Shown piece by piece: positions 4,397-10,003 of a stretch of 64,000 bases of DNA. The notes beneath the pieces are model-generated. The model searched no databases and had not been told where the DNA came from. It saw only the letters and a list, made by a program, of their open reading frames with translations. The stretch is taken from assembly GCA_021846505.1 (NCBI GenBank), contig JAJZWV010000011.1, positions 1 to 64,000 of the forward strand, written 5' to 3'. The stretch is from Bacillota bacterium. GTDB taxonomy: Bacteria; Bacillota; Sulfobacillia; Sulfobacillales; JAIMBI01. The position numbers were made by a program, and so were the translations under genes. Positions within the stretch are counted from its first letter, which is position 1. Each line of letters opens with the position of its first letter.

Positions 4397-4851
4397 TGCG
4401 CCTGATGACACGCCACTGGGGCACGGTGGAGGTGCCGGACGACCGCGTCGTGACGCTGACCGAGCCCCTGCTGGGCTTTCCCGAGCAGCGGCGCTTTGTG
4501 CTGCTGCCAGCGGGGCCCACCTCGCCGTTCATCTATCTGCAGTCGGCCGACGACCCCACCCTGGCTTTTGTGGCCATCGATCCGCTGGTGCTGGTGCCGG
4601 ACTACGAGGTGCCGCCGGCCGAGGCGGCCGCCTACGGCTCCCCGGACGAATGGGCCGTGCTGGTTCTGTGCACCATCACCGCCAGCGAGCGCTCGGCCAA
4701 CCTGCGCAGTCCCTTAGTCATTAATCGGCGGACGCGTGAGGGCGGCCAGGTGGTGCTGTCGCTGCCGTACCCGTTCCAGCATGCTCTGTCCCGGTCCTCA
4801 TCCCAGTCCCTGGCGCCCGGGCAGGAGTCCGGCCGCGGCGAGAGGGGGTAG
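4396..4851 (+). CDS. fliW: Flagellar assembly factor FliW
   Basis: FliW binds flagellin and, when free, binds and inhibits CsrA, coupling flagellin translation to export. The motif run LLGFPEQRRFVLLP, the F-I-Y-LQS stretch and SPLVINRR are diagnostic. A CTG start at 4396 gives 151 residues and an N-terminus MRLMTRHWGTVEV that aligns without gap to FliW N-termini of the form M-x-I-x-T-x-x-x-G. It also places the strong AGGAGGTG at normal distance. The first ATG, 4405, would lose three aligned residues and sits 17 bases from the SD. csrA follows after 4 bases. Confidence 0.93.
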   Translation: MRLMTRHWGTVEVPDDRVVTLTEPLLGFPEQRRFVLLPAGPTSPFIYLQSADDPTLAFVAIDPLVLVPDYEVPPAEAAAYGSPDEWAVLVLCTITASERSANLRSPLVINRRTREGGQVVLSLPYPFQHALSRSSSQSLAPGQESGRGERG

Positions 4852-4855
4852 CGCG

Positions 4856-5134
4856 GTGCTGGTGCTGACGCGCAAGCGCGGGGAAGCCGTGGTCATTGGG
4901 GATGACGTGGTGGTGCGGGTGCTGGAGGTCACCGGCGACGCCGTGCGGCTCGGCATTGACGCCCCGCGGGCCATCGGCGTGCTGCGCGAGGAAATTTGGC
5001 TCGCCACGCAGGCGAACCGGGATGCGGCGGCGGCGCCGGCCCCGGACCAACTGCCGGACATGGGTCCCGCCCGGGGCTCCAGCAACGCCGCGGCCCTTAC
5101 TCCTCCGACAGCGCCTCCGAAAAAATCTCCGTGA
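4856..5134 (+). CDS. csrA: Translational regulator CsrA
   Basis: 92 residues from GTG 4856, four bases after the fliW stop and behind GAGAGGGGG. MLVLTRKRGEAVVIGDDVVV is the canonical CsrA start; GDAVRLGIDAPRAIGVLREE completes the domain by about residue 48. CsrA binds GGA motifs in hairpin loops of mRNA and in Bacillus represses flagellin (hag) translation. The tail after residue 60 is longer than usual and rich in Ala/Pro. Its 3' end overlaps fliN of the opposing operon by 38 bases. Confidence 0.97.
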   Translation: MLVLTRKRGEAVVIGDDVVVRVLEVTGDAVRLGIDAPRAIGVLREEIWLATQANRDAAAAPAPDQLPDMGPARGSSNAAALTPPTAPPKKSP

Positions 5135-8709: not shown

Positions 8710-9894
8710 CTAGCCCAAGATCTTCAGGATTAAATTGGGCAGCGCCTGGGCCTGCGACAGCATCGCCGCCCCGCTCTGCGCCAGCACCTGATCTTTGGTG
8801 AACGACGTCATGGCCTGGGCCATGTTGACGTCCATGATGTCGCTCTGGGCCGAGTTCAGGTTGGTGGACTCGGTTTGCAGGTTGGACATGGTGTAGGACA
8901 GCTGGTTCTCGTAAGCCCCCACACTGGAGCGCGCCGTGCTTTGCATGTTGATGGCGTTGGTCACCACCGTGATGGCGTTTTGCGCGGCGGCCGCGGAGCT
9001 GGACACATCGATGTTGGTGCCGGCCGCGTCCTGCAGCCCCAGGTTCTGGGCGCTCATGTTGCCCAGCGTGACGTTGAGCTCGTTGGACCCGCCCTGGTTG
9101 GACCCCACCTGGAACGACAGCACATTGGAGATGCTCGCGGTCGATGCCACCGTGAACGTGGCGGTAGCCCCCGAGGTGGTTGCTTCGGCAGCCGAGGTGG
9201 ACACATTAAACGACAGCGAGCTGCCGCTCACGTTCGCTCCCACGAACTGGAACACGAGGCTCGAGGTCGAGTTGGTCAAGTTGGTCAGGGTGGCGGTGGA
9301 CACAGTGTTGCCGCCAAACTCCAACTTGGCCACGTCAGTGACTTGGCCGTTGGCCCCGGACGATGAGCTGAACGCCACCGTGTACGTGCCCACAGCCCCA
9401 CTGGCCACCTGGCTGGTGTCGCTGCCCACCGTCACCGCAATGCTGGACGTGCCCGCACTGGCCGTGAGCTGCGAGTAGTTGCCGTTCAGCAGCTGCTTGT
9501 TGTTGAACACCGTGTTTTTGGCGTTGTCGTTGATCTGCTGAACCAGCTGGTTGATTTCCGACTGGATGTTTTGCCGATCCGTCGAGGTCATGGTGCCGTT
9601 GGAGGCTTCCACCGCCAGCGACCGGATCTGCTGCAGGATTTGCTGGTCCTGCCCAATTCCGCCTTCGGCCGTCTGCAGCATCGAGTTGGCCGACTGAGCA
9701 TTCGAGTACGCCTGGTTCAGGCCACCCACCTGGGCATTCATGCCGGTGGCAATGGCCAGCCCCGCGGGGTCGGTCGCCGCCGAGGTGATGCGATACCCGG
9801 TGGACAGCTGCTGCAGCACGTTCTGGGTCGCAGTTTCGGTCCCATCCAGCGCGTTCATCGCTAAGAGCGCCGGAATATTGGTGTTGATGATCAC
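8710..9894 (-). CDS. fliC: Flagellin
   Basis: 394 residues from GTG 9894. Conserved D0/D1 ends are clear: IINTNIPALLAMNALDGTE, QLSTGYRITSAATDPAGLAIATGM and, at the C-terminus, VGAYENQLSYTMSNLQTESTNL plus AQSGAAMLSQAQALPNLILKILG. The centre (about 150-280) is Ser/Thr/Val rich and variable, as expected for the exposed domain. It is a separate transcription unit with its own promoter candidate and a structured leader. The SD AAGGAGG lies inside a hairpin loop (see the CsrA-site entries). Confidence 0.97.
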   Translation of the reverse strand: MIINTNIPALLAMNALDGTETATQNVLQQLSTGYRITSAATDPAGLAIATGMNAQVGGLNQAYSNAQSANSMLQTAEGGIGQDQQILQQIRSLAVEASNGTMTSTDRQNIQSEINQLVQQINDNAKNTVFNNKQLLNGNYSQLTASAGTSSIAVTVGSDTSQVASGAVGTYTVAFSSSSGANGQVTDVAKLEFGGNTVSTATLTNLTNSTSSLVFQFVGANVSGSSLSFNVSTSAAEATTSGATATFTVASTASISNVLSFQVGSNQGGSNELNVTLGNMSAQNLGLQDAAGTNIDVSSSAAAAQNAITVVTNAINMQSTARSSVGAYENQLSYTMSNLQTESTNLNSAQSDIMDVNMAQAMTSFTKDQVLAQSGAAMLSQAQALPNLILKILG

Positions 9895-9898
9895 GCGA

Positions 9899-9916
9899 AA
9901 TCTCCTCCTTGAGATT
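9899..9916 (-). promoter_or_regulatory. Putative CsrA site BS2 covering the fliC Shine-Dalgarno
   Basis: In the mRNA sense: AATCTC-AAGGAG-GAGATT, a perfect 6-bp stem with a hexaloop containing A-N-GGA, the CsrA recognition core. The loop is the fliC Shine-Dalgarno itself, so bound CsrA would block initiation. This is the arrangement of the SD-proximal site in the Bacillus hag leader. Confidence 0.7.
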
Positions 9917-9938
9917 GCGAGATTTGTTAGTGCGAGGG

Positions 9939-9956
9939 GCGCCCGTCCTTGGGCGC
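9939..9956 (-). promoter_or_regulatory. Putative CsrA site BS1 in the fliC leader
   Basis: In the mRNA sense: GCGCCC-AAGGAC-GGGCGC, a perfect 6-bp GC stem with hexaloop AAGGAC, again A-N-GGA. It lies about 40 bases upstream of the SD site (centre to centre), a spacing compatible with one CsrA dimer bridging both. Confidence 0.7.
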
Positions 9957-9973
9957 ATGCGGCTCGCGGCCTT

Positions 9974-10003
9974 ATTGTCCGACTCTTCTCGCCACGGCGC
10001 CAA
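9974..10003 (-). promoter_or_regulatory. Candidate fliC promoter
   Basis: Minus strand TTGGCG, 18-base spacer, GACAAT (4/6 and 4/6 to sigma-A). The start would give a leader of roughly 70 bases that includes both putative CsrA hairpins. A sigma-28 type promoter (TAAA...GCCGATAA) was looked for; TAAA then GGCGAGAA is present but the spacing is 13, not 15. Confidence 0.35.

Follow-up and report, generated by a model that had tools for sequence, protein, structure and literature searches.

Paired GGA-loop hairpins in the flagellin mRNA leader of a Sulfobacillales bacterium: a probable CsrA-FliW switch

Results

Organization of the fliC locus and the fliW-csrA pair

The window, that is, the whole 64,000-nucleotide stretch of DNA that was analyzed, carries on its minus strand a flagellin gene, fliC (8710..9894), which matches Pfam Flagellin_N/C and encodes 394 aa from a GTG start codon at 9894-9892. 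A flagellin query against the window's genome returned no second flagellin: fliC was the best match and the sole other match was a FlgL-like gene. Besides FliD, FliS and FliL, the neighbours of fliC include FliW and CsrA, whose genes lie on the plus strand next to flgK-flgL. fliW (4405..4851), encoding the proposed CsrA antagonist, scored 87.7 bits with Pfam FliW and matched the solved FliW of 5dmb; csrA (4856..5134), with a GTG start, scored 72.7 bits with Pfam CsrA and matched the solved CsrA proteins 5dmb chain D and 1t3o. The first-pass annotation had placed fliW-csrA 5 kb from the fliC leader; the distance was right and the Pfam matches confirmed both identities. Structure entry 5dmb contains both CsrA and FliW chains, and FliW is proposed to bind CsrA and flagellin. 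The window CsrA also aligned with solved CsrA/RsmE proteins and retained L4 and R44, residues that we take to be important for RNA contact. At position 43 the window protein has Leu, the solved homologues have His, and other members of the class have Leu, Met, Phe or Tyr. The window protein has an extended C-terminus and 92 aa in all; in the order the CsrA tail often ends in PKSR or PKSP.

The fliC leader contains two hairpins with A-N-GGA loops

Analysis of the minus strand upstream of fliC showed two hairpins, each made of a perfect 6-bp stem and a hexaloop (in brackets): hairpin 1, GCGCCC[AAGGAC]GGGCGC, at 9956-9939 and hairpin 2, AATCTC[AAGGAG]GAGATT, at 9916-9899. The Shine-Dalgarno (SD) sequence for the GTG start, AAGGAG (9905..9910, minus strand), is the loop of hairpin 2. 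Two A-N-GGA hairpins, the second presenting the SD, had been described in the first pass, and their positions and strand proved exact. The minimum-energy fold of the leader included both. Folded alone, hairpin 1 was strong (-11.9 kcal/mol) and hairpin 2 moderate (-4.4 kcal/mol), and the latter may extend in the direction of the start codon. The bulk stability of the whole 121-nt leader was unremarkable (z -0.78), so that the case rests on the motif and its conservation. No such Rfam family matched at the leader hairpins. On the basis of sequence and fold, joined with covariation in relatives for hairpin 1 and comparison with relatives for hairpin 2, we consider hairpin 1 a candidate high-affinity CsrA site and hairpin 2 a candidate second site.

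We then determined how often such hairpins arise in 1,188,821 bases (1.19 Mb) of the window's own genome, scanning both strands for loops of the form A-GGA-N or A-N-GGA-N on stems scoring at least 5. Results showed 51 matches, or 0.021 per strand-kb, and the fliC leader was the only place where two occurred in tandem within 60 nt. No other SD-placed hairpin in the 1.19 Mb was convincing, as the candidates belonged to short or doubtful frames, overlapped the start or were intragenic.

Compensatory changes maintain the upstream hairpin

A search of 60 related genomes together with the window's own yielded flagellin matches in 53 of the 61, from which three sets of leaders were compared: 32 of order-level flagellins of the fliC type, 6 of another flagellin type (here the second type) and 19 of class flagellins. 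By one fixed rule (stem score of at least 5 around an A(N)GGA loop), the upstream hairpin was present in 26 of the 32 order leaders, compared with a mean of 0.10 and a maximum of 3 in 300 shuffles, a test that allows for picking the best site. In the class it was detected in 7/14 leaders from genomes with csrA and 0/5 from genomes without it, and in the second-type leaders in 0/6. Six order leaders fell below the cut, and five of them still enclose this loop in a stem that is shortened or interrupted; stems of this kind belong to G003, G007, G028, G035 and the pair G012/G024 (internal loop), and the congener G003 has an A.G mismatch within hairpin 1.

The spacing between hairpin 1 and the SD differs between order leaders, because of which MAFFT misplaced hairpin 1; its alignment of whole leaders was dropped and GGA-anchored windows were used instead. 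Two congeners differ by a compensated pair (GGCGTCC[AGGGAC]GGACGCC versus GGCGCCC[AAGGAA]GGGCGCC), and quite different stems enclose the same kind of loop elsewhere (GGTTTCG[AAGGAA]CGAAACC, CCCCGAC[AGGAG]GTCGGGG, GGTCAC[ATGGAC]GTGACC). In the hexaloop windows 93.2% of cells were paired, double changes occurred at 7/7 pairs, the loop A.GGA was invariant and covariation reached 1.03, compared with 0.24 for shuffled and no more than 0.25 for slid windows; in the pentaloop windows 97.8% of cells were paired and covariation was 0.63 against 0.21 shuffled. Both sets of windows were placed around the GGA and its loop, a choice that in itself biases towards unvarying loops and paired stems. The information in hairpin 1 alone is too little for a covariance-model search of whole genomes. 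This comparison of sequences indicates that hairpin 1 is a real RNA structure. The first-pass annotation had pointed to retained GGA loops in relatives as a check on its reading, and the congeners, like almost every same-type order leader, did keep the loop. Its further claim that the stems themselves are conserved held in full for hairpin 1, through compensatory changes, and only in part for hairpin 2, whose stem is down to 2-3 bp in the majority of order leaders.

Two additional features were observed in these leaders. Four leaders of one genus (L012, L008, L013 and L010) carry an extra AT-rich hairpin, GAAATC...GATTTC, upstream of hairpin 1 and near the presumed 5′ end. The upstream hairpin of two genomes (L030 and L031) is interrupted by an internal loop, GAYCTC AA CTCAGGATGAG A GAGGTC.

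The SD hairpin is patchily conserved

An A-N-GGA at the SD was found in 44 of the 46 leaders compared. At a stem score of at least 4.5, an SD hairpin was present in 7/32 order leaders (∼0.15 expected) and 6/14 class leaders from csrA-positive genomes (∼0.02 expected), and in several families it reappears on stems of different sequence. In the SD windows 65.4% of cells were paired and covariation was 0.30, compared with 0.13 for shuffled and no more than 0.15 for slid windows; the closing pairs are kept and the outer pairs often fail. In four congeners the SD hairpin lies within an invariant block, upstream of which the spacer is variable, and no covariation can be read from a stem that is invariant within the genus. 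By sequence comparison, the SD hairpin is a weaker case than hairpin 1 and is patchy across both order and class.

The hairpins co-occur with csrA and fliW

Both csrA and fliW were detected in 44 genomes and neither in 16; one further genome gave a sub-threshold csrA match only. The hairpins were present in 35 of 39 genomes with both genes and in 0 of 7 without them (p 6e-6), and with families counted once in 13/14 versus 0/7 (p 7e-5), counts that are not fully independent of phylogeny. Four genomes with hairpins in which csrA-fliW was not detected (G028, G034, G036 and G041) were treated as assembly gaps because flgL was likewise not detected in them and completeness is at most 90% in three; if these were true absences, the co-occurrence would be weaker. 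In the order genomes G005 and G018 a flgL-like gene adjoins a second-type flagellin, and neither fliW-csrA nor hairpins are present.

Flagellins of this second type (L055, L060, L061, L095, L096 and L097) are mostly longer and their leaders are without CsrA hairpins. G026, G028 and G032 contain both flagellin types.

Sigma-28 and FlgM in the order

FliA (sigma-28) was found above the cut-off in 0/42 order genomes, the window's included, and FlgM likewise in 0/42. In contrast, each was present in 17/19 class relatives (p 3e-13 for one such comparison, uncorrected for relatedness). The sub-threshold FliA matches in the window genome were rejected: NCBIfam identified SigG, SigE and SigH among them, another was a SigF-like factor, and inspection showed SigA and ECF factors. 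Sigma-28 boxes were found in 1/32 order leaders (p ≤ 0.05) versus 7/19 class leaders.

Upstream of hairpin 1, on the minus strand, the window leader shows a possible vegetative-type -35 box, TTGGCG (9998..10003; p ∼0.05 in the window leader and 0.00-0.01 in three congeners), and a possible -10 box, GACAAT (9974..9979), within a GGACAAT kept in 4 congeners. Congener leaders carry TTGGCR-like and GACAAT boxes. A stricter sigma-70 scan of the leader reported no promoter, so this is a promoter that we infer. Transcription from it would start near 9967, upstream of hairpin 1.

Discussion

Comparison established the anatomy of the fliC leader, the compensatory conservation of hairpin 1 and the co-occurrence of the hairpins with csrA-fliW. 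The leader is very probably the known CsrA-FliW flagellin switch of the hag/flaA type, and we regard it with high confidence as a two-site CsrA target under FliW-relieved flagellin feedback. CsrA binding, bridging, repression and relief by FliW are proposed here by analogy with Bacillus subtilis and Campylobacter jejuni. Hairpin 1 would show its A-N-GGA in a stable stem and recruit the CsrA dimer by one of its RNA-binding faces, and the second face would then reach the A-N-GGA of hairpin 2, which is the SD, and block ribosome binding. Binding of FliW to CsrA would lift the block. Because unexported flagellin would hold back FliW, flagellin would be translated only during export. Three observations weigh against this reading: a long SD stem is not kept across the order, hairpin 1 of the congener G003 contains an A.G mismatch, and CsrA residue 43 is Leu where the solved homologues have His.

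Other explanations of the two hairpins were weighed. That they are chance occurrences without function has a negligible probability: short stems do turn up at 0.02 per strand-kb at the threshold used, but the shuffle, covariation and co-occurrence tests alike reject this explanation, and for hairpin 1 the compensatory changes rule it out. It is also very improbable that CsrA plays no part, with hairpin 1 stabilising the mRNA at its 5′ end and hairpin 2 acting as a protein-independent translation or temperature switch. Hairpin 1 would indeed lie ∼10 nt from the inferred 5′ end, and hairpin 2 is able to extend and pair near the start codon; however, a stabiliser has no need of a fixed loop, yet GGA persists while 7/7 pairs vary, the SD sits in the open loop of hairpin 2 and not in its stem, and hairpins are absent where csrA-fliW is missing.

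A further alternative, which we consider unlikely, accepts CsrA binding and holds that hairpin 1 alone matters structurally, the SD hairpin being incidental to the SD sequence TCAAGGAGGA and any binding at the SD taking place on single-stranded RNA. The 2-3 bp around the SD in most order leaders fit this explanation. Against it, SD hairpins occur in 7 order leaders and 6 csrA-positive class leaders, far above expectation and with differing stems, SD-window covariation exceeds the shuffled value, and the four congeners share an invariant block around the SD. We retain the two-site CsrA target as the preferred reading, with the SD hairpin as its less secure half.

This architecture is already known from C. 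jejuni flaA and B. subtilis hag; what is new is its context, an order without FliA or FlgM. The flaA leader has two A-N-GGA stem-loops, the second over the ribosome-binding site, which were footprinted with CsrA and show compensatory changes in relatives; FliW is the antagonist and there is no CsrB-type RNA (PMC4894983). The fliC leader resembles it in both stem-loops, in the position of the second and in the compensation, with CsrA binding here predicted. C. jejuni differs in belonging to another phylum, in having fliW apart from csrA (adjacent here) and in transcribing flaA with sigma-28, which was not found here. In B. subtilis, CsrA represses hag via two sites, one over the SD, and FliW relieves the repression (PMC7652899, PMC6529632). 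This system, from the same phylum, shares with fliC its two sites (candidates here), one of them over the SD, and the presence of fliW and csrA; unlike the window's order, where neither was found, B. subtilis also uses sigma-D and FlgM, and CsrA has been described there as the dominant inhibitor beside FlgM. The SELEX consensus for CsrA is RUACARGGAUGU (PMC7652899). As in SELEX sites, GGA lies in hairpin loops, and ACAGGAUGU occurs at the loop in many relatives from the order. The differences are that the pentaloop of the order falls short of the SELEX loop by one base and that the fliC hairpins are mRNA leader elements and not sequestering RNAs. Going by the title of a cited reference, CsrA reportedly controls flagellin in Borrelia. 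Borrelia, of an unrelated phylum, is like this order a flagellated lineage without sigma-28, and its flagellar control operates in the absence of that factor (PMC11607428). Our literature search found no paper mentioning CsrA, FliW and Sulfobacillus together.

Judging from gene content, the order may have lost sigma-28 and FlgM, which would leave CsrA-FliW as its main surviving hook-completion checkpoint. We give an even chance to the fuller proposal that, with the sigma-28/FlgM checkpoint lost, vegetative-type promoters drive flagellin transcription and flagellin synthesis is coupled to export solely by the CsrA-FliW RNA checkpoint, the lineages lacking csrA-fliW being those of the second flagellin type, without either control. 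All in all, the sequence comparisons, with their evidence from compensatory base pairs, would extend the CsrA-FliW flagellin switch to a GC-rich Bacillota order and several other families of the class. An order without sigma-28 and FlgM offers a natural setting for asking if filament assembly can be timed by translational control alone.
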